Below are positions 53,327 through 64,000 of a DNA stretch of 64,000 bases, in pieces. The notes under the pieces are model-generated. The model had not been told where the DNA came from and did not search any database. It saw only the letters and a list, made by a program, of their open reading frames with translations. Within the stretch, counting starts at the first letter, position 1, and every line of letters starts with the position of its first letter. Position numbers and translations under genes: made by a program. This DNA is from Micromonospora violae (lineage in GTDB: Bacteria; Actinomycetota; Actinomycetes; Mycobacteriales; Micromonosporaceae): positions 4,030,001 through 4,094,000 of the forward strand of contig NZ_SHKK01000001.1 of the NCBI RefSeq assembly GCF_004217135.1, in the 5' to 3' direction.

Positions 53327-53444
53327 GCTCACCGCCACGTCCGCCCCCCGAACACGACAGGCCGAGGCGAGCAACCGGCGGAGGAATTCCCGACGCGGCA
53401 GCGGGTAACCGCCGCCCCGGATGCCGCGATACCGGGGGGACGCG

Positions 53445-54299
53445 ATGGGTGCCACGCCGCAGGGGCAGGTCGACACGGTCGTGCTGATTCACGGGCTCTG
53501 GATGACGCCGCGCAGCTGGGAGGGGTGGACGCAGCGGTACACCGCGCGCGGCATGCACGTCATCGCCCCCGCCTGGCCCGGAATGGACCGGTCCGTGGAG
53601 CAGCTGCGCGACGATCCCACCCCGATCGCCGAGCAGAGCATCGCCACGATCGTGGCGCACTACGACCGGATCATCCGGGCGCTGCCCCGACCACCGATCA
53701 TCATGGGGCACTCGTTCGGCGGCCTGATCACCCAGCTCCTCGTCGACCGGGGCCTCGGCGCCGCAGCGGTCGGAGTGCACCCCGCGCAGGCGAAAGGGGT
53801 GCTCAAGGTGCCGCTGAGTCAGCTGCGCTCGGGCTTCCCGATCCTGCGCAGCCCCGCCAACCGCAACAAGGCCGTCCCGTTCACGAAGGACGACTTCGCC
53901 TACACCTTCGGCAACGCGTTGAGCCGGGAGGACTCCGACCGGGCCTGGCAGCGCTACGCCGTCCCCGGCGCCGGTCGGGTCTACTTCGAGGGCGCGTTCG
54001 CCAACCTCGACCCGCGCTCGCCGGCCCGGGTCGACTTCGGGCGTGACAACCGGGCACCGCTGCTGCTGATGGCCGGCGAGATCGACCACGTGGTGCCGGC
54101 GTCGGTGGTCCGCGCCAACGCCGCGCTCTATCAGAGGTCCCGCGCCCTCACCGCGTACGAGGAGTTCCCCGGCCGGTCACACTTCACCGTCGGTCAGGAC
54201 GGCTGGGAGAAGATCGCCGACTACGCGCTGGACTGGGCGCTGCGGGCGGCGGCCCTGCCCCGGGAGGCGACAATCGCCAGCGAGACCCCCCGCCGCTGA
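53445..54299 (+). CDS. Alpha/beta hydrolase
   Basis: A 284-residue hydrolase, start ATG 53445 after GGGGGGA. The fold signs are VVLIHGLWMTPRSWEGW, nucleophile Ser in MGHSFGG, Asp region AGEIDHVVPASVV and His in FPGRSHFTVGQDGWE. In this group GHSFGGL with HPAQAKGVLKVPLSQL is common among actinomycete lipase-like proteins of unknown substrate. It converges on the BREX operon (41-base gap) and marks the apparent left border of that island. Confidence 0.88.
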   Translation: MGATPQGQVDTVVLIHGLWMTPRSWEGWTQRYTARGMHVIAPAWPGMDRSVEQLRDDPTPIAEQSIATIVAHYDRIIRALPRPPIIMGHSFGGLITQLLVDRGLGAAAVGVHPAQAKGVLKVPLSQLRSGFPILRSPANRNKAVPFTKDDFAYTFGNALSREDSDRAWQRYAVPGAGRVYFEGAFANLDPRSPARVDFGRDNRAPLLLMAGEIDHVVPASVVRANAALYQRSRALTAYEEFPGRSHFTVGQDGWEKIADYALDWALRAAALPREATIASETPRR

Positions 54300-54340
54300 C
54301 CCGCCCATCGCCCACCCTGACGAAGGAACTGGTACACCCA

Positions 54341-56443
54341 CTACTGGACGATGACGAATCGTACGGGTTCGTCCAGCACCACGGCAGCGCCCTCCAGGTC
54401 GGCCAGGCGCGCGGCCAGCGTGGCTGCGGCCAACCGTTTCGGCAGGGCGGCGCCGAACTTGAGACCGTCCACGGCCTTGTCGTTGACCTCTGGCAGGCAC
54501 AGTCGGGTGGCGGCGTCCGCGGTGAGTGCCCGCCAGGTCGCAGGAGTGACGTCTTCCCGTAGTCGGATGCTGTTGCCGTCGAACCGCTCCACCGGATCGA
54601 CAACTTCGCCCAGCGTGGCGGTCAACGTGGCATTCGTCCGGAAACCCGCCCAGGTCCACCAACGCAGGTCACCGCTGCTCTCGCGGGCAATAACAGTGCC
54701 ACCGGGATGCACCAGGTGCAGTTTCTCCTCGCGCTCCCGCGCCAGGCGAGTCAGCGCACGACGGGTGAGAGCGACGGGAGGCTCCGCTCCCAGCAGCACC
54801 TCACGCATCGCCCGGGTGATCTCGTGACTGCGGTACGCCCACCCGGTGCCCGTCCAACGGGCACGTCCGCCGCCGTCGGCGGGCTCGACGAAACACCGTC
54901 GACGGCGCCAGTCGATGTAGGTGACGCGCCAACTCCGGCCGCTCAACAGCAGGCGGCGTTCGCCCCGGACCTCCTCGGTGAGCAGGCTGGGATCGATCCG
55001 ACCCAGCTCGCTACGGCCCAGGAGGACGGTGAACTCGGGCGGCCCGGTGAATACGGCCGTCATCTCCATGAAGTGGCGACGGCCGAACCGCTCCTCAGCG
55101 GTGGGACCGATGAAGAGCATGCCCTCGTCCTGCTCCAGATAACCGTGCTCGACGAGGTGTCGAACGATCGGTCGGGCGTTCTTCGCAAAGGGCGGCAGCT
55201 CGTTCCAGGCCTGGATCCAGGTTTCCGCACCGATCCGATGCTCCTGAAGGCAGAGCGCGAGCACCTGTTGGGCGACGATGTGCCGAGGTTCCGGCGGCGC
55301 GGTGACCGGCTCCACCCAACCTCGCGACCAGAGCAGGAGCAACGCGGCCGCCTCCACGAGCGGCTGGCCACCGAGCGTGAGGAACAGGCAGTTCCGGCTG
55401 CTTCCCGGACGGCGACCGGTGCGTCCGAGCCGCTGCAGGAAGGACGCTACGGTAGGTGGCGCGTCGATCTGGATCACGCGGTCCAGATCACCAACGTCGA
55501 TGCCGAGTTCGAGGGTGCTGGTTGAGACGATGACGCAGTCCCGTGACTCACCAAACGCCTGTTCCGCGCGGCGCCGCTCGTCCACGGACAATGACGCATG
55601 TGAGAGGAAGGTGGTAACGCCCTGCTCCCGCAGCAGCTGTCCGAGCTCCTCGACTGTCTGCCGGGATTCGCAGAAGACCAGCCGCTTCTCGCCCGGATGC
55701 AGCGCGGCGATCACGGCTGCGGCGTTGGTGAGCGAGCCGACATAGTCCAGCTCGATCTCGCCCGCTGGTGCGTCACCCGCGATATGGACCACCTCGGGTG
55801 CGACGACCTGGGCCGGCCGGCTGCCCGCGCCAGAACCCTGGAGCCAGGTGAGCAGGTGGTCGGGGTTGCCGACGGTGGCGGAGAGCCCGATCCGCTGCAG
55901 GGGCCGACCAGCTACCCGGGTCAAACGTTCCAAGACGGCGAGCAGGTGCCAACCTCGGTCATCTCCCGCGAAGGCGTGCACCTCGTCAACGACCACCGCT
56001 TGGAGGCTGGCGAAGAACTGGCGGTGGTCGACGTTGGCGCTGACCAGCATGGCTTCCAGCGACTCAGGTGTGGTCAACAGGATGTCCGGCCGTTCGAAGA
56101 GCACGCCCCGCCGCCGCGAGGCGCCGACATCCCCGTGCCAGAGGGCGACCTGCCGTCCAAGCCAGCCGGCGTACTGCGCTAAGCGAGGCTCCAGGTTGTT
56201 GAGTAGCGCCTTCAGCGGGGCGAGGTAGAGCACCGAGGTGCCCGTCCACTGGTGCGTGGCCATCCGGGACAGCAGCGGGAACAGTGCGGCCTCCGTCTTG
56301 CCGCCGGCCGTCGGGGCGAGCAGAAGGGCATCCAGGCCGCCCTGCACAGGGGCGATCGCAGCACGCTGCAGTGGACGCAGGTCTCGCCAACCCAGCGTGT
56401 TGACCACGTGGTGCACCACGACCGGGTCGAGGTCCGGCACCAC
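54341..56443 (-). CDS. brxHI: BrxHI: Lhr-like DEAD/DEAH-box helicase of type 2 BREX
   Basis: A 700-residue superfamily 2 helicase. Motif I is APTAGGKTE (K49), motif Ia LAPLKALLNN, motif II VVVDEVHAF (DEVH), motif III LSATVGN, and motif VI FLQRLGRTGRRPGS. A winged-helix/Lhr-type C-terminal half follows, without the extra Lhr core. The gene is the last of the pglY-pglZ-brxD-brxHI run, one base after the brxD stop, which is the set known for type 2 BREX. It presumably acts on DNA during phage defence. Third-position GC looks less extreme than in nearby housekeeping genes, consistent with transfer, but I did not compute it. Confidence 0.92.
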   Translation of the reverse strand: MVPDLDPVVVHHVVNTLGWRDLRPLQRAAIAPVQGGLDALLLAPTAGGKTEAALFPLLSRMATHQWTGTSVLYLAPLKALLNNLEPRLAQYAGWLGRQVALWHGDVGASRRRGVLFERPDILLTTPESLEAMLVSANVDHRQFFASLQAVVVDEVHAFAGDDRGWHLLAVLERLTRVAGRPLQRIGLSATVGNPDHLLTWLQGSGAGSRPAQVVAPEVVHIAGDAPAGEIELDYVGSLTNAAAVIAALHPGEKRLVFCESRQTVEELGQLLREQGVTTFLSHASLSVDERRRAEQAFGESRDCVIVSTSTLELGIDVGDLDRVIQIDAPPTVASFLQRLGRTGRRPGSSRNCLFLTLGGQPLVEAAALLLLWSRGWVEPVTAPPEPRHIVAQQVLALCLQEHRIGAETWIQAWNELPPFAKNARPIVRHLVEHGYLEQDEGMLFIGPTAEERFGRRHFMEMTAVFTGPPEFTVLLGRSELGRIDPSLLTEEVRGERRLLLSGRSWRVTYIDWRRRRCFVEPADGGGRARWTGTGWAYRSHEITRAMREVLLGAEPPVALTRRALTRLAREREEKLHLVHPGGTVIARESSGDLRWWTWAGFRTNATLTATLGEVVDPVERFDGNSIRLREDVTPATWRALTADAATRLCLPEVNDKAVDGLKFGAALPKRLAAATLAARLADLEGAAVVLDEPVRFVIVQ

Positions 56444-56444
56444 G

Positions 56445-57749
56445 TCAGATCGTCAGTTCGATGTCGTCGGCGCAGGCGGCTGCGTTGCGTTCCACCTCGG
56501 TCAGCTCGTCGGCCCGCAGGGTCAGTGCGTAGTGCTGCCGCGGGTCCCAGTCGGCGAACTGGTCCACCCGATCGAAGACGTCCGCGACGAGCTTCTTGAG
56601 GTAGACGCGGGGTGCCACCCCGACCCGACCGCCCAGTGCTCCGGTGACGGCCCGGGCCAGGGTCGCGAGGTAGCCGTCGTCTACCCGTGCGTCGACCTGC
56701 TCACTGGCGTAGATGTCCCGGACCCTGCTGCCGAGTTCCACCAGGGCGTCGACGGTGAACCCGGGCAGCCGCAGTTGGGTGGCGCGGGGGTTGTCCCAAC
56801 GCGGGTCGGGGCCGAGGTCGGTGGCGAGTCGTTGCGCGAGTGGCGCGAGCCGTTGGACGCCCTGCGGGCCGTCGAAGAACGCGGGCGTCCCGGTGATTAC
56901 CAGCAACAGGCCAGGGAAGCGGTCGGCATGGACCTCGTCGATGAGCTGTCGGAGGGCGTTCAGTGCCTTGTCCCGTGCGTCAGAGCGCACCCGTTGCAGC
57001 GTTTCGACCTCGTCGAGCACCAGCAGAAGCCCCCGGTGCCCGCTGTCACGCATGACGGTGAGCAGCCCCTGGAGGAAGCTCAGCGCGCCGTAGTGGTCAA
57101 GGTCGCCCTTCACTCCGGCCGCGCGCCGGGCGGATGCCGCGACGTGTGGCTGACCGCCGAGCCAGGCGGCCAGTCCGTCGGCGGTGAGGTGGTCACCGCT
57201 GGCGCTGGCGGCCCGGTAACCACGCAGGGCGGCGGCGAAGCCCGGCGTGCTCCGGGAAATGTCACCCAGCCGGCGTTCCAGCAGCTCGCCGACTGCTCGA
57301 TCGAGCGCCTCGGCATCGTCCTCGGCGACCGTACCCCCGGCGAGCACGTCCTCCTCCAACGCGAAGATCCAACCGTCGAGTACGGGTCGGAACGCGCTCG
57401 GGGCGAACTGCTCAGTGCTGAGGTGTTCGACCAGCCGCCGGTAGACGGTCTCCATCCGGTGCAGTGGTGTTTCTAGCTCGGAGATCTGCACCTCCGCGGC
57501 GGAAAAGCCGCGGCGCTTGGCGCGCTCGGCCAGCCACCGTGTGAAGAACGTCTTGCCGGCCCCGTATTCGCCGCGCACGGCCTTGAAGACGCTCCCGCCG
57601 CTGGCGACCCGTTCCAGGTCGTCGTCTAGCGCGGTGGTGAACCGGTCCAGTCCGACCGCGAGTGCGTCGAGTCCGTTACTCGGGACTACCCCGCGCCGCA
57701 GCGCATCGACGATGTCCCGGCGGCGGCGGGCCGACAATTCCACGGTCAC
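56445..57749 (-). CDS. brxD: BrxD: P-loop ATPase of type 2 BREX
   Basis: A 434-residue ATPase. Walker A is GEYGAGKTFF (K66) and the acidic Walker B region is LLLVLDEVETLQR. DKALNALRQLIDEVH and LLLVITGTPAFFDG follow, as in BrxD/DUF2791-type proteins. Its GTG overlaps the pglZ stop by 4 bases, and brxHI follows after 1 base, so these are strictly co-translated. It is probably a DNA-associated AAA-like motor partner of the helicase. The name is from family pattern plus its position between pglZ and the helicase. Confidence 0.92.
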   Translation of the reverse strand: MTVELSARRRRDIVDALRRGVVPSNGLDALAVGLDRFTTALDDDLERVASGGSVFKAVRGEYGAGKTFFTRWLAERAKRRGFSAAEVQISELETPLHRMETVYRRLVEHLSTEQFAPSAFRPVLDGWIFALEEDVLAGGTVAEDDAEALDRAVGELLERRLGDISRSTPGFAAALRGYRAASASGDHLTADGLAAWLGGQPHVAASARRAAGVKGDLDHYGALSFLQGLLTVMRDSGHRGLLLVLDEVETLQRVRSDARDKALNALRQLIDEVHADRFPGLLLVITGTPAFFDGPQGVQRLAPLAQRLATDLGPDPRWDNPRATQLRLPGFTVDALVELGSRVRDIYASEQVDARVDDGYLATLARAVTGALGGRVGVAPRVYLKKLVADVFDRVDQFADWDPRQHYALTLRADELTEVERNAAACADDIELTI

Positions 57750-60460
57750 CGCGGCTCCAGCTCGAACTGCTCGATCAGCAACGCGCGGTTGAGGTGAACG
57801 GTGCGACCGTCCGCGTCGACGGTGATCACGGGATAGCCCTCGACCTGAAGGAGCCGACGCAACACGGTGACGGTGCCGTTGATCCTGTGTGCAGGTACGC
57901 CGGACCGGGCGGCGAGGGTGTCGAGGGTTGCCCGGTCACCGCCGGCGATCAGCGTGGTCAGCAGCGCGGCGACCCGTTCGTCGGCCAGGGGCAGTCGAGG
58001 GTCGCGCCGTTGGGCGTAGCGCTCACTGGAGAGCAGGGCCGTCACCAGGTCAGGCGGAGTGGGGACAGGCCGCAGTGCGGCAGCCGACGCGACGACAGCC
58101 GGCGCCAGGTCGAAGAGACCGTCGGTCTGCTGCTCGACGGATTTGCGCGGGCGACGCCGGGTTGCCGGCGCGGGTTCGGCCGGCGGGGGCGTGCTCTCCG
58201 TCAACGGTTCCCGCCACCAGTCCGGGCTGGCCACCGGCGCGCCTGCCCAGCCGGGCACGGCAAGGTCGTCACCAGCGGTCAGCACGAGCAGTGGGATGAC
58301 GGCTTCCGCCGGTGCGGCGCCGCCGTGGTAGCCCGCCTTGCGCGGCCCGTACCGCACCTCCTCCCGCCAGGGCAAAACGACGGACCCGCCGCCCAGCGCC
58401 ACCCGGCTGCCGGCGACGGCCACTTCGGCGTCGCCGGGCGGGTCGGTCGGCGGTCGCCACCGGTTCTCACCGCTGACGCTGGGCAGGGTGACTGACTCCG
58501 GGCCCCGGTCCACGACGTGGCCGTGGTCGGAAACGATGACGACCACCCGGTCCGGGTCGCCCGCAGAGGCCAGCAGGTCACCGACAGCGGTGATGGTGTC
58601 GTCGCCCCAGACGGTGGTACCCGGGTCGCTGCGGTCCAGGGCGTCGTCGATCGTGTTGACAACGGCGGCGACCAGGGGGATCGACTTGTCGTCGAGGGCG
58701 GCGAGCACGTCCGGGTCCAGGGCTGCTCCGGCTCCGGCGCGCAATGCCGACTTGTGCAGCAGCCGCCCGGCGGCGAAGCGTTGCTCGAACGCCTTCCGCT
58801 CGGCCTGCTGGCCGCCGGCAGCGATGCGCCCGCTCAGCAGGCTGCACCGGCTGGCCTCGGTGACGGTGGGCAGGGCCGCCAGCACACCCGTGCGCGGGCC
58901 GCCATCGGGGGTGAGTTCCACCCAGGCGCCGCTGCGGGTGACGGACTCGGCCAGCTCGGTCGCGGCGGCGACACCCATGCCGTCCATGACGAGCATCAGC
59001 ACCCGGCGACCGGTGTCGAGGACCGGCTGGACCACCCGGTCGAGCACGTCTTCGACGCGCAGTAGCGCACCGGGCTGTATCTCGGCGTTGGTACCGGCGG
59101 CGAGCAGCGTGGCGAACTGCTGGTCGTGCCGAGAGCGACGGGCGTCGACAGCCCGGTGCAGCAGTCGATACGCCTCGGCGACCTGTGGGTCGGGATCCCC
59201 GGCGAAGACGTCGAGCCGGGCCCTGTCGACCCAGCCGTCCTGCCGGACCTGCCGGTGCAGTGCGTCGAGCAGGGTGGCCGGTGGCGGGCCGTCGGTGGTG
59301 TGCAGCCAGCGCAGCAGGCGGACGGCCATCCGGGCGGTCTCGACCCGGCGCGGCTCGGCGGCCCGGTGCTCCTCGACCGTGGCGAGGGCCGACTGTGCCC
59401 GTGCCACCGCCGCCGAGAGCGCCGACCCACCGGCCGGCACGGCGAGTCGTACGGCGTCGGCGAAGGCCCGCAGTCGCTGAACGAATCCGCTGGGCAGGAC
59501 GGTCGAGGCGCCGAGCAGTGCGTTGATCTCGACCTCGGCGGCGATCGCCTCGGCCCGGCGCAGCATTCGCATCGCTTCGTCCCGGCCCTTGTCGCCCGAC
59601 TCGACGGTCCGGTAGACCCACGACTCGGCCGCCTGGTGCAGCTGATCGGCCTGCTGCGGGCTGAGCCGAAGGCCGCCGAACCGGGGCTCCAGTCGGGTAC
59701 GACCGACGGCTGCCTCCACCTGGACGGCACCACCGGTGCTGGCGGGCCAGAGCAGCCCGGCGAGCAGCCCCAGCGGGATGACGTCGACGCCGTGTCCGGC
59801 GCGTACGGCGGCCATCATCGGGACGGCAGCGTGGCCGGCGGTCCCGGTCAGGTACGCGGTGATGCCGTCGGCGACGGCCTCCGGCAGCTGGGTGAAGCGC
59901 AGTTGCCGCCGTGCGTCGGTGCTCCACTGCACCAGGCCGCTGTCGTCGAGTTCGGCGGGTGGCAGGTCGAGCAGTTCGGAGGTGAGGCTGCGCAGCGCGT
60001 GGTCGCGGGTGAGGATCGCGCCGGGCGGGGCCGGCCAGCCGTCGGCCGGGGCGTGGTCGGTGAGCGCGTTGGCGACCCAGCGTCCGACCCGAACCAGGGT
60101 CGGGTCGAGTGCGGCCACTCCGCCGAACATCTGCCGGACCAGGTCCCACGGATCAATCTTGCGCACGGTCTGCTTGCTGAGGTGGGCGAGGACCCCATCG
60201 CCCAGTTCGGTGTCGGTCAGCTCGGTCAACAGGACCAACCGTTCGCCGTCGGCCCGGTCGTGCAGGGCGGCGCGGGCGGCCAGCGGAGTGGGACATGGAA
60301 CGACCCGGACCCGACAGCCGTTGACGCTGAACACCGTTTCGGCCGGCCCGTCGGGGCGGGCGGTCAGCGCGATGGCGTCGGCCGGATCGTCCTCGGCCAG
60401 CCACGCCTCGACCTTGCGGCGGATCGCGTCGGGTTGGGCTACGCCGACGGGCACGCTCAC
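57746..60460 (-). CDS. pglZ: PglZ: alkaline-phosphatase-fold protein of BREX
   Basis: A 904-residue protein. The N-terminal ~430 residues are BREX-specific helical and beta parts. The PglZ domain begins at about residue 490 with VLMLVMDGMGVAAATELA (metal-binding Asp). The nucleophile-like Thr/Ser region is PTVTEASRCSLLSG, and VVIVSDHGHVVDRG and GYHGGAAPAEAVIPL carry the other metal ligands. Recent work on the family describes phosphodiesterase/nuclease-type activity; earlier work predicted phosphatase. A C-terminal winged-helix part ends the protein. The GTG at 60460 has GAGGTGGG upstream. It is a core defence component. Confidence 0.95.
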   Translation of the reverse strand: MSVPVGVAQPDAIRRKVEAWLAEDDPADAIALTARPDGPAETVFSVNGCRVRVVPCPTPLAARAALHDRADGERLVLLTELTDTELGDGVLAHLSKQTVRKIDPWDLVRQMFGGVAALDPTLVRVGRWVANALTDHAPADGWPAPPGAILTRDHALRSLTSELLDLPPAELDDSGLVQWSTDARRQLRFTQLPEAVADGITAYLTGTAGHAAVPMMAAVRAGHGVDVIPLGLLAGLLWPASTGGAVQVEAAVGRTRLEPRFGGLRLSPQQADQLHQAAESWVYRTVESGDKGRDEAMRMLRRAEAIAAEVEINALLGASTVLPSGFVQRLRAFADAVRLAVPAGGSALSAAVARAQSALATVEEHRAAEPRRVETARMAVRLLRWLHTTDGPPPATLLDALHRQVRQDGWVDRARLDVFAGDPDPQVAEAYRLLHRAVDARRSRHDQQFATLLAAGTNAEIQPGALLRVEDVLDRVVQPVLDTGRRVLMLVMDGMGVAAATELAESVTRSGAWVELTPDGGPRTGVLAALPTVTEASRCSLLSGRIAAGGQQAERKAFEQRFAAGRLLHKSALRAGAGAALDPDVLAALDDKSIPLVAAVVNTIDDALDRSDPGTTVWGDDTITAVGDLLASAGDPDRVVVIVSDHGHVVDRGPESVTLPSVSGENRWRPPTDPPGDAEVAVAGSRVALGGGSVVLPWREEVRYGPRKAGYHGGAAPAEAVIPLLVLTAGDDLAVPGWAGAPVASPDWWREPLTESTPPPAEPAPATRRRPRKSVEQQTDGLFDLAPAVVASAAALRPVPTPPDLVTALLSSERYAQRRDPRLPLADERVAALLTTLIAGGDRATLDTLAARSGVPAHRINGTVTVLRRLLQVEGYPVITVDADGRTVHLNRALLIEQFELEPR

Positions 60461-60499
60461 GATCCCACCTCAGGACGACCGGCCGCGGATCCCGCCGCG

Positions 60500-60539
60500 C
60501 CGGCTCGGCGGTGTGCGACGCGGCCGACCGCCGAGCCGG
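60500..60539 (-). promoter_or_regulatory. Perfect hairpin between pglY and pglZ
   Basis: Thirteen-base arms CCGGCTCGGCGGT / ACCGCCGAGCCGG around a 14-base loop, touching the pglY stop codon (60540-60542). It could be an attenuator or mRNA-processing site that lowers pglZ-brxD-brxHI expression relative to pglY. There is no T-run. Confidence 0.7.
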
Positions 60540-63500
60540 TCACCGGATCTCCCAGGTGACCGTGAGCCGCCGCCCGGCAGCGACCTCGGCCGTGATCTCG
60601 GCAGCGACCTTCTCCCAGGTGGCCGCATCGGCGACCTCGCGACGCTGATGGGCGACCGCGATCAGCCGATCGCCACCGGCCACCGCGACCGGCCCAGCCC
60701 CACCGGTCCCCTCGATCTCAGCCCCACGGCCCGGCCCGCCACCGCCGCCATTCGCGGGCACCTCGACAGGGCCGGACTCGCGGGGCGGCTGCTGCCCCGG
60801 CACCGTGACGGTGGGGATGGTCCCCCCGCCGTTCGGCGTACCCCCGGGGTTGTTGACTGTGGGGTCCTGCGGCGGGTTGGTGGCGAGCAGCGCCGCCGAC
60901 GCGTCGACTGCCGTCTGGAGGGCGTCCACCAGGTCCTGCCCGTGCTGCTGGTGTCGGGCGACCTCCCGGAGCTGCCCGATGATCGCCTGCGCCTGCTCGT
61001 CGTGGGCGGCCCGGGCCGAGATCGCCTGGAGCAGGGACCACTGGTGGCCTCGGGCCATGGCGGCAAGGATCGTTCCCGCCTGGCTGAGCAGCTCCCCGAC
61101 GGCCTGGTCGTCGACGTCGCCCAGGTCGGCCCGAGCAACCGTTTCGACCAGCACCACGTCGTCGCGCTCGGCGGCCAACTCGGTCACGAGTCGAGCCGCT
61201 CGGCGTGCGGTGGCGAGCCGGCCCGTTGGGGCTGAGGTGTCCAGGCCCAGCACGTCGGCGTGGGCTTCCAGCGCTTCGACGAGGTCGCGCGCGGCTTTCG
61301 TGCGCGTGCTCGCCGCCGTGCGCAGCGTTCCGGCGAGTTCACCGAGGTTGGCCGGCGTCCGCCAGACGGGCAGCACGCCGCCGAAGATCGCCGAACCCCG
61401 GCGGACCGCGTCTCTCCAGGCCTGCTCGTCGGGCATCGGTGGGTGGCGCAGCTCCAGCTCGTCGCGCACGAGGGCGAGGTTGCCCACGTCGACCTTGCCG
61501 CCGTGCTGGTACCAGGCGAGCTGCTGCTCCAGCCCAAAGACGACGATGATCAGGTTTTGCAGCTCACGGTCGAAGCCGAACGCGGCGGGTTCGTCGATGA
61601 GCCGACGCAGCACGTGCACCGGGAAGTGGTCGGTGTAGCCCTCGTTGGCGGCGGCCTGGAGCAGGTGTTGACTCCACCGGCAGGTAGTCGTGTTGAGCAC
61701 GTAGCGGCCGTCGATCAGCTCACCGAGGCGCAGGTTGTTGCAGACGCGCCGGAGGATGCGCTGGTCGACCGGGTTGGGCACGCTGACGCCGCGAGCGGGG
61801 TCGACGGCGGCCAGCCGGGCGTACTCCAGGATCTTGGTCATCTCGCTGCGGGTGACGGGCTTCTCGTCGTCCGGCATTGCCGGCCGGCCCGGGTAGGACC
61901 AGGCAAGGAGTTCCCCGGTCAGGTTGTGGAACGCCTCGGCGAGGGTGCCGCCCCGGGGGTCGCCGACGTGCAGGCCTTCGGCGAGGGTGTGGAACACCCC
62001 GATGGCATCGTCCTGCACGTCGGAGCCGCGCGATGTGGCCGACCCGTACGCCTGCATCATGGCGCTGATCAGCGTGCCGCGCAGTTGGGTCTGGCGCTGC
62101 TGGAGGTAGACCCGGCCCTGCTGCCGGTCGGCGAGGGGCCAGTCGGCGGCCAGCGAGTTGAGCCGGTCGCCGGTGCCGTTGCCCAACAGGTAGTTGATCC
62201 TGGCGAGCTGGCCGACCTTGCCCATCAGCTCGTCGGTCAGGAAGTAGGGCAGCCAGAAGACCGTCCGGGAGCCCCGTTCCAGGCGCTCGATCCGGGCGCG
62301 GTCCGCGCTGCGCTCGTAACCCTGGGGGTCGAACGGATAGTCGATGATGATGCGCCACGCCTCGCCGGTGGCGATCAGCGCGGAGACCGGCATGGTGTCG
62401 GGGTCGCGGACGTTGCCGAACTTGACCTGGACGGTGTGCTTCCGGCCACGCCAGTCGCGGGCGTGCAGCAGCTCACCGAGCTGCCCCTCGGCGCCGGCGA
62501 TGCCCATCTCGGCGGTGACCAGCTCCCGGATGAGCTGCTGCCGGACGCCGGTGGTGGTGGCCTCGTCCTCGGGGACCAGGTCGAGCAGCTTGTCGTAGTC
62601 GACGGTGTGCAGCTTGAGGCTGACCACCGGGTCGGGGGTCTTGGTGAGGTGCAGCTCGCCGGCGCCGTCGGCGACCCGGTTGAGCCGGTTGAGCACGATC
62701 TGCCGCTCGTAGCCGGGGATCGGCGAGGTGATCGAGCCGAAGTTCAGCGCGTGCAGCTTGGCGGCGGTGAGGTTGTGCAGGGCCGGCACCTCGGGGACCA
62801 GCGCGCCGAGCAGCACCGTCTTGACCAGCTTGTCGTCGAGCTGGAACTGCTGGTGGCCGGCCGCCTGCTCCTCGGTGATGCCGTTGAGGTTGAGCAGGAT
62901 GGGGCGCAGCTTCTGGGTGTAGAGGGTGCGGGCGGCCTGGAAGAGCTGCTTGAGCTTGGGCCGGTCGGGCAGTTCGCCGTGCAGCACTAGGGGGTCGAAG
63001 AGGGCGGCCACCCCGATCAGGTCGTTGACCCGCAGGGTGTCCCGGCGGTCGACGAGCAGCTCGGTCATCACCTTCAACGCGGTGCGTTCCCGCTGCAACG
63101 CCTGGGAGAGGGCGACCAGGGTGGCGACCAGGGCGGGCGAGAACGGGTAGAGCTTGCGGAAGGCGGCGGCGTCGGAGCCGATGCCGGCGTCACCGTACTG
63201 GGCGCCGAGCAGCAGGGCGTCCCAGACCTCCCGGTTGCCCTTCACGGCGGCGAAGGCGTTGTCGATGACCGCCCGACCCTCGTCGGTGAGCGGCTTGAGC
63301 AGCCGCTTCTCGGTGATCTCGGGCAGGTTGGTGTCGGCGAGGACGATCTCGCCGAAGCGGCCCTGGACGCTGCGCATGACGTGCGCGAGGGCCTCACGCT
63401 CGGTGCCGCCGACCTGGGGGCCGAGGAAGTCCTCCAGGTTGCGCTGCCGGGCGACGAACGAGATCAGCGGCAGCGGCCGGGTGGCGTCGGCGGACTCGAT

Positions 63501-64000
63501 GAGCTTGTTGAGCTTCGCGCCCTCGGTGTTGACGAAGGTGTGATCGCTGATCTTGGTGGAGAGCCAGAGGATCAGCTCGTCAAGGAAGAGCACCAGCGCG
63601 TCGTACCCGAGAGCCTTGGCGTGCCGGGTGATCACGGCGAGGCCGGTGTCCAGGTCGAGGTACTCCCCGCTGCGGACCGCGCCCGTGAAGAACGTGCTGG
63701 TCAGCGCGCTGACCAGCCGGTCCCGCTGCTCGGTGCCGGGTACCGCCGCCGCAGCGGCGGCGTAGCTCTGCGGGGTCCAGCCGTCGGCCTGGGCGCGCAG
63801 CGCGGCGAGTGAGAGGCCACCACCGGCCGCCGGGGTGCCGCCACCGTCGCGCAGCGCCGCGAAGAAGGCGTCGTCGCCCATCCGCTCGCGCAGCCGCGCG
63901 GCGTCGTTCAGCAACGCGTCCGACCGGTGTACGGCGGGGACGGGCGCCTCGGGGTGCAGCCTGGTGATCTGGTTGAGGTACCCCTCCAGGACGGCCTGCT
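60540..64000 (-). CDS. pglY: PglY: large BREX ATPase (N-terminus cut by the window edge)
   Basis: At least 1152 residues are open to the right edge; the start lies outside. The visible part begins QAVLEGYLNQITRLHPEAP. The Walker B motif of the ATPase is YDALVLFLDELILWLSTKI. Long helical regions follow (TALKVMTELLVDRRDTLRVNDLIGVA and others). The Gly/Pro-rich linker (about 100 residues before the end) leads to a final small beta domain ending LTVTWEIR. S. coelicolor PglY is about 1290 residues, so roughly 140 N-terminal residues with Walker A are missing. It is the first visible gene of the BREX run. pglX and pglW are expected further right. Confidence 0.93.
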   Translation of the reverse strand, partial: QAVLEGYLNQITRLHPEAPVPAVHRSDALLNDAARLRERMGDDAFFAALRDGGGTPAAGGGLSLAALRAQADGWTPQSYAAAAAAVPGTEQRDRLVSALTSTFFTGAVRSGEYLDLDTGLAVITRHAKALGYDALVLFLDELILWLSTKISDHTFVNTEGAKLNKLIESADATRPLPLISFVARQRNLEDFLGPQVGGTEREALAHVMRSVQGRFGEIVLADTNLPEITEKRLLKPLTDEGRAVIDNAFAAVKGNREVWDALLLGAQYGDAGIGSDAAAFRKLYPFSPALVATLVALSQALQRERTALKVMTELLVDRRDTLRVNDLIGVAALFDPLVLHGELPDRPKLKQLFQAARTLYTQKLRPILLNLNGITEEQAAGHQQFQLDDKLVKTVLLGALVPEVPALHNLTAAKLHALNFGSITSPIPGYERQIVLNRLNRVADGAGELHLTKTPDPVVSLKLHTVDYDKLLDLVPEDEATTTGVRQQLIRELVTAEMGIAGAEGQLGELLHARDWRGRKHTVQVKFGNVRDPDTMPVSALIATGEAWRIIIDYPFDPQGYERSADRARIERLERGSRTVFWLPYFLTDELMGKVGQLARINYLLGNGTGDRLNSLAADWPLADRQQGRVYLQQRQTQLRGTLISAMMQAYGSATSRGSDVQDDAIGVFHTLAEGLHVGDPRGGTLAEAFHNLTGELLAWSYPGRPAMPDDEKPVTRSEMTKILEYARLAAVDPARGVSVPNPVDQRILRRVCNNLRLGELIDGRYVLNTTTCRWSQHLLQAAANEGYTDHFPVHVLRRLIDEPAAFGFDRELQNLIIVVFGLEQQLAWYQHGGKVDVGNLALVRDELELRHPPMPDEQAWRDAVRRGSAIFGGVLPVWRTPANLGELAGTLRTAASTRTKAARDLVEALEAHADVLGLDTSAPTGRLATARRAARLVTELAAERDDVVLVETVARADLGDVDDQAVGELLSQAGTILAAMARGHQWSLLQAISARAAHDEQAQAIIGQLREVARHQQHGQDLVDALQTAVDASAALLATNPPQDPTVNNPGGTPNGGGTIPTVTVPGQQPPRESGPVEVPANGGGGGPGRGAEIEGTGGAGPVAVAGGDRLIAVAHQRREVADAATWEKVAAEITAEVAAGRRLTVTWEIR

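Follow-up and report, generated by a model that had tools for sequence, protein, structure and literature searches.

Does a run of four minus-strand genes at the right-hand end of a 64,000-nucleotide stretch of Micromonospora violae DNA belong to a complete type 2 bacteriophage exclusion (BREX, or Pgl) system, and how does that system relate to the genes around it? The stretch, hereafter the window, covers positions 4030001–4094000 of the source genome, a single contig of 7.14 Mb (NZ_SHKK01000001.1). Window positions are genome positions minus 4030000, and this numbering is continued beyond 64000 for features on the right; G and L numbers are our handles for genomes and loci. We think it very likely that the locus holds a complete type 2 BREX system, carried on a chromosomal defence island of 39.5 kb, with two places for cargo and a probable second-line module, M55, in one of them.

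The initial annotation had read the four open reading frames (ORFs) as pglY, a gene for a PglZ-domain protein, brxD, and brxHI. The coordinates and the PADLOC and NCBIfam profile matches (Table 1) agree with this reading and support the BREX family assignments. The motifs quoted for them (LVLFLDEL, GEYGAGKT, and DEVH) were all located in the ORFs, and the 4-base overlap of pglZ with brxD and the 1-base gap of the linked pair brxD and brxHI both follow from the ORF coordinates; pglY and pglZ are 79 bases apart. BrxHI also matches Pfam DEAD and Helicase_C and carries the motifs GGKT, DEVH, and SAT. BrxD matches Pfam BrxC_BrxD (468.2 bits) and its PADLOC model (E = 2.4e-204), PglZ matches PADLOC (E = 1.2e-284) with SDHG and DGM motifs present, and a Walker A motif was found in both BrxD and PglY. 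These profile scores rule out chance as the source of the four family matches.

The window ends inside pglY, and pglX and pglW had been predicted to lie to the right of position 64000. Both are there, on the same strand and above their NCBIfam cut-offs. A lack of any PglX-type methyltransferase near the cluster had been named in advance as the outcome that would speak against BREX; a profile search of the genome turned up a single type 2 PglX, nearby and with an NPPY motif. PglW gave a single match above its cut-off (28 further matches in the genome fall below it) and combines NERD and kinase domains, with an HRD motif present. Curated NCBIfam cut-offs are passed by PglX, PglW, PglZ, and BrxD, while BrxHI, for which no NCBIfam model exceeds its cut-off, and PglY rest on PADLOC models. 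Several results weigh against the assignment. The best NCBIfam model for full-length PglY is PglY, at 926.5 bits under a cut-off of 1700; Pfam PF08665 gives no match in PglZ; and a literal DFG was sought in PglW and not found. Since no better-scoring model appeared in those PglY and PglZ searches, the low PglY score and the missing PF08665 match point to a divergent clade and not to another family. Judged from its sequence, the locus is a real and probably complete type 2 BREX anti-phage system.

The core system is of an already known kind, because main-text portions of PMC12839542 report type 2 BREX from 1309 taxa, along with many embedded nucleases that include OLD-TOPRIM; they also count type 2 BREX among the largely unexplored types. 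Going by family, PglX would methylate an adenine in host target sites, and PglY with PglZ would recognise and attack unmethylated phage DNA. BrxD would help by loading the BrxHI helicase, and PglW, with its NERD nuclease and kinase parts, would sense infection and control the others. The locus might instead act by true phage growth limitation, in which phage DNA is modified in a first cycle and attacked in a second, rather than by BREX-like marking of the host. The Pgl system of S. coelicolor is described in this way in portions of PMC4365076, with PglX toxic in the absence of PglZ and with a pglX G tract named as the cause of phase variation. In the M. violae pglX, in contrast, G or C runs of seven or more are absent, and homopolymer phase variation was rejected for this gene. 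Main-text portions of PMC12839542, moreover, note a lack of direct evidence that phage DNA is methylated at first infection, and prefer a mode like that of BREX. We regard growth limitation as unlikely here.

Two large inserts interrupt the six core genes and leave them in three blocks: insert A (11.8 kb) parts pglY from pglX, and insert B (7.7 kb) parts pglX from pglW. In nine relatives with an empty site, similarity to the M. violae genome stops at 54299–54308 on the left, where the island edge had been guessed at 54300–54340, and resumes at 93791–93833 on the right; from these two breaks we take the island to be about 39.5 kb long. The S. coelicolor locus, as given in portions of PMC4365076, has the same four Pgl genes, keeps pglY and pglZ together, and likewise has a gap between its pglWX and pglYZ blocks, which form two operons 6 kbp apart. 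The pglX–pglY gap as such is therefore not new, though it measures 11.8 kb here against 6 kbp there. Unlike in S. coelicolor, pglW and pglX are also separated in M. violae. This filled pglW–pglX gap, together with the exchange of cargo between collinear islands, is what our analysis adds.

Table 1. Features of the island, its neighbours, and one gene pair of relatives (aa, amino acids; positions in window numbering unless an L handle is given).
Feature	Position	Strand	Match or place
Hydrolase, left neighbour	53421-54299		
brxHI, Lhr/Ski2-like helicase, 700 aa	54341..56443	-	PADLOC BrxHI 1069.6 bits, E 0
brxD, ATPase, 434 aa	56445..57749	-	NCBIfam BREX_BrxD 665.1 bits (cut-off 350)
pglZ of type 2 BREX, 904 aa	57746..60460	-	NCBIfam BREX_PglZ_2 (NF033446) 878.5 bits (cut-off 200)
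pglY, BrxC-type ATPase, 1276 aa	60540..64000, onward to 64370 (370 bases past the window; start at L001:11370)	-	PADLOC BrxC-PglY 1194.9 bits, E 0 (window part of gene only)
Insert A, pglX–pglY place	64371-76192		
XRE-DUF5753 regulator	ORF up to 66175	+	insert A
AAA/STAND protein with Schlafen AlbA_2 domain	66455-68569	-	insert A
165-aa ORF	69284-69781	+	insert A
PLD-like protein	69825-70772	+	insert A
254-aa ORF	71101-71865	-	insert A
NB-ARC-TPR protein	72610-74808	-	insert A
GNAT	74774-75418	-	insert A
DUF6879	75346-75885	-	insert A
pglX, type 2 adenine methyltransferase	76193-79729 (profile match genome 4106208-4109720)	-	NF033451 1694.6 bits (cut-off 400)
M55C, DUF262/GmrSD_N	79764-81461	-	insert B; PADLOC 782.9 bits
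M55B	81474-82355	-	insert B; PADLOC 311 bits
M55A, OLD-type ATPase	82345-83811	-	insert B; PADLOC 566.2 bits
SNF2 helicase	84076-86616	-	insert B; DpdE-type model 674.6 bits
pglW	87439-91569 (profile match genome 4117469-4121551)	-	NF033442 1503.3 bits (cut-off 990)
254-aa ORF, partner of QatC-like gene	91740-92504 (L002:18740-19504)	+	no match
QatC-like protein	92501-93814 (L014:12501-13814)	+	NCBIfam 224.8 bits (cut-off 280)
M50-CBS peptidase, right neighbour	93834-94964		
Second-clade pair beside pglY	L022:10234-13443, L029:4418-7627, L031:9678-12882, L039:9628-12834		

Is this split peculiar to M. violae? Among 298 genomes of the order, thirty-six have a PglX of type 2, and PglZ and PglW are each present in thirty-five of these; the BREX set therefore travels together. 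The lone exception for both is G189, where the PglX match is partial. Where the locus is compact, 39 to 305 bp separate the pglW and pglX profile matches (962 in G280, and three values are estimated), and pglX and pglZ lie 3.7–4.0 kb apart, which leaves space for pglY alone. Distances between pglX and pglZ of 4.6–5.4 kb, found in G191, G059, and G023, were scored as unfilled. A pglW–pglX distance over 3 kb occurs in 10/13 Micromonospora loci versus 5/22 elsewhere (Fisher P = 0.004), and a pglX–pglZ distance over 6.8 kb, pglY being next to pglZ, in ten of the eleven testable Micromonospora loci versus 2/21 elsewhere (P = 1e-5), P-values that are only a guide because the genomes are related. These counts show two fixed openings in the operon, one at pglW–pglX and the other at pglX–pglY. 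For G074, G191, and G059 the pglW end was estimated (the profile matched the first part of the gene), so their printed distances are not measurements; they count as unfilled because the partial match ends within 1.7 kb of pglX. Three genomes (G175, G275, and G063) fell outside the pglX–pglY test, with pglX and pglZ on different contigs. G037 was left out of that count, its large pglX–pglZ distance being an insert between pglY and pglZ: a gene of 1801 amino acids there (L049:1270-6675) marks a third insertion place in one genome of the order.

Cargo differs among relatives whose core genes and outer flanks stay collinear. G209 and M. violae share 96% identity over full-length PglY and 92–96% over those ends of PglX, PglZ, and PglW that were fetched, and both outer flanks are collinear, down to the QatC-like gene and its partner (DNA identity 90 and 93%). 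Both slots nevertheless hold different cargo, save for an XRE gene (35% identity) and two stretches in the pglX–pglY slot that resemble the M. violae sequence (180 and 290 bp, 74–76%). G175 has the M55–SNF2 cargo in common with M. violae (92% DNA identity) and a different gene adjoining pglY; its pglX–pglY slot is split over two contigs and so is not visible whole. G126 carries M55A, M55B, and M55C at 39–61% identity, without SNF2, and other cargo in the pglX–pglY slot. The chromosomal address is identical in these three genomes, and no such flank was seen in G220, which also has M55. Cargo elsewhere includes HNH, PIN, OLD-like ATPase, EAL, RuBisCO-like, and DUF262 proteins, and of the twenty cargo proteins scanned, nine lacked a Pfam match at E 1e-4. 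Islands that are collinear and differ in their cargo amount to a natural experiment on how a defence module enters a working operon.

Could the split locus be a system in decay, its operon cut by the inserts and some of its genes no longer cooperating? The inserts do part genes whose profile matches are close neighbours in most compact loci, and the SNF2 gene beside M55 in G175 is read in two frames (L036:1166-3695), so that it is broken or the assembly is wrong. The M. violae core ORFs, on the other hand, are full length without internal stops and hold most of the motifs sought, the core proteins are as close to those of G209 as given above, and the S. coelicolor pgl genes stand in two operons as well. 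Decay is a very unlikely explanation.

Traces of how the cargo may have moved were found in two genomes. Inside the pglW–pglX slot of G209 lie 330 bp left over from a second 3′ end of pglW, with 92% identity to the intact end, and in G227, from another family, about 615 bp are repeated at 81% identity, the last 71 bp of pglW among them, a weaker case. We interpret both as remnants of homologous recombination through pglW; recombination of this kind, with the conserved core genes as its route, would be what swaps the cargo. When thirty-one slot loci of relatives and the two M. violae slots were compared with themselves, no other core-gene end repeats were found; the repeats in L021, L028, L044, and L048 lie inside the slots. 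The M. violae genome itself has no convincing direct repeats framing its slots.

The M55 genes of insert B match three PADLOC PDC-M55 models over most of their length and appear in the same order in the loci seen. Among the order genomes, M55B is present in four, and in all four it lies between pglW and pglX. A class-wide draw of 394 genomes contained M55B in seven besides M. violae, flanked by M55A and M55C in 7/7 (M55C matched only partly in two, and M55B was seen by profile only at one locus). The 14–20 kb fetched at each of these seven loci gave no match to the M. violae pgl, brxD, or brxHI proteins (0/7), and in four of the seven genomes a PglX match turned up, always on another contig. 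The function of M55 therefore does not need BREX beside it. Because these loci carry all three genes without BREX nearby, M55 is a free unit that Micromonospora has placed into its BREX operon.

What might M55 do there? M55A matches an OLD ATPase in the PDB and AriA models (80.5 bits with one; best E 4.8e-23), although the PDC-M55A, NsnB, and HEC-03B models score better; NsnA and NsnB are components of Menshen. M55B has a fold like OLD C-terminal regions and like a PARIS chain of AriB length, at 10–15% identity over the aligned region, and its residues E110, D173, D175, and E209 are present in 38/38 aligned sequences. PARIS (AriA–AriB) and OLD nucleases are among the closest known systems, but M55B has an extra N-terminal part (about 1–99) and the third gene encodes a DUF262 protein. 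PARIS has a two-gene make-up, whereas M55C accompanies M55A and M55B in all four Micromonospora loci and all seven others (partially in two). The trio beside pglX would most likely form a second line of abortive defence, in which M55A, the OLD-type ATPase, would sense infection or an attack on BREX and then release or activate the putative TOPRIM nuclease M55B, and M55C would add a nucleotide-binding or recognition part. The PADLOC table gives PDC-M55 no description or activity, and the TOPRIM fold of M55B, added here, supplies a nuclease hypothesis for this candidate. Extra OLD ATPase, nuclease, and GmrSD-type genes in or beside the core recall the BREX systems with auxiliary nucleases, including OLD-ABC with TOPRIM or HNH, of PMC12839542; the main-text portions of that paper describe no trio of OLD ATPase, TOPRIM, and DUF262 and no exchange of cargo at two fixed slots. 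Among the papers listed by a literature search, none showed an occurrence of PDC-M55 and no title concerned M55 or Micromonospora BREX; preprints (bioRxiv) and supplements were outside its scope, so absence is unproven.

These results raise a direct question: does M55, or M55B, guard BREX? The inserts may instead be passive island cargo, tolerated where it does least harm within a working type 2 BREX core, with M55 having no functional tie to BREX. Such a reading gains from the class-level M55 loci and from the G209 pglW–pglX slot, which is filled by genes for a prolyl oligopeptidase and an MgtE-type protein, so that cargo is not all defence-like; nine of the ten cargo proteins of relatives scanned against PADLOC, too, had no match at E 1e-5. 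It fits less well with the confinement of M55B to the pglW–pglX place in the order sample, with the shared strand of the M55 genes and pglX (M55C ends 34 bases before it), or with nuclease-type genes that recur beside pglX or next but one (HNH in G228 and G091, PIN in G091). Passive cargo is a plausible account, though we lean somewhat against it. We hold as rather doubtful the bolder proposal that Micromonospora type 2 BREX is a two-slot platform, its core serving as recombination arms for module swaps while the island stays unmoved, and that M55, as a PARIS-like ATPase and TOPRIM nuclease with a DUF262 partner, is a BREX guard wired into the pglX transcription unit and triggered by phages that disarm BREX. 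Clear pglW relics in one or two loci only, non-defence and unmatched cargo, and M55 loci away from BREX weigh against our main reading.

The island site was also surveyed across the genus. In sixty-one genomes (M. violae included), the flanking genes gave forty-six hydrolase and sixty-one M50-CBS matches at E 1e-60, a few of the hydrolase matches being paralogues only (42–50% identity). The best matches of both genes share a contig in thirty-eight other genomes, less than 200 bp apart in nineteen, nine of which served for the edge comparison, and 0.4–29 kb apart in the other nineteen. The longest spacing (29 kb) is that of G126 with its BREX island. Because half of these genomes (19/38) carry such spacings, the hydrolase–M50 site looks like a hotspot. 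The inserts in the eighteen further Micromonospora genomes (G321, G335, G323, G228, G015, and others) measure 0.4 to 11 kb. G279, which has an empty site and is part of the order sample, has no PglX match. A tRNA-linked integration site is not supported, since no tRNA gene was found in the window or in the 60 kb of L001–L003, and no Rfam family matched at gathering score in those 60 kb.

Several neighbouring genes deserve mention. The SNF2 helicase of insert B is under the cut-off of every NCBIfam model listed. A Qat system comprises QatA, QatB, QatC, and QatD together; beside the QatC-like protein no QatA or QatD was seen, and the next gene is the M50 peptidase. The QatC-like gene and its partner keep the same place in G209, G175, and G126 and may represent a QueC-type defence unit that is reduced or of a different kind.

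A second Micromonospora BREX clade has a PglY about 38–40% identical to that of M. violae. Four of its genomes carry, divergent beside pglY, genes for a weakly M55C-like protein of 662–663 amino acids and a protein of 393–395 amino acids; in the L022 pair, Pfam GmrSD_N matches the former and nothing matches the latter. In G197 and G275, EAL-domain proteins of about 725 amino acids are cargo upstream of pglY (L033:2689-4878 and L039:7443-9620); one of them also has a sub-threshold match to CHAT. A link between cyclic-di-GMP and a defence island would be unusual.

Last, the roughly 820 bp 5′ of pglY (64371–65190) stay similar in G209, G126, and G220, and in G175 after an insert. In all four genomes the similarity ends at 65190–65191, just before the XRE-DUF5753 gene, which is fast-evolving and divergent from pglY. 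Control of the pglYZ-brxD-brxHI operon may reside in this segment.

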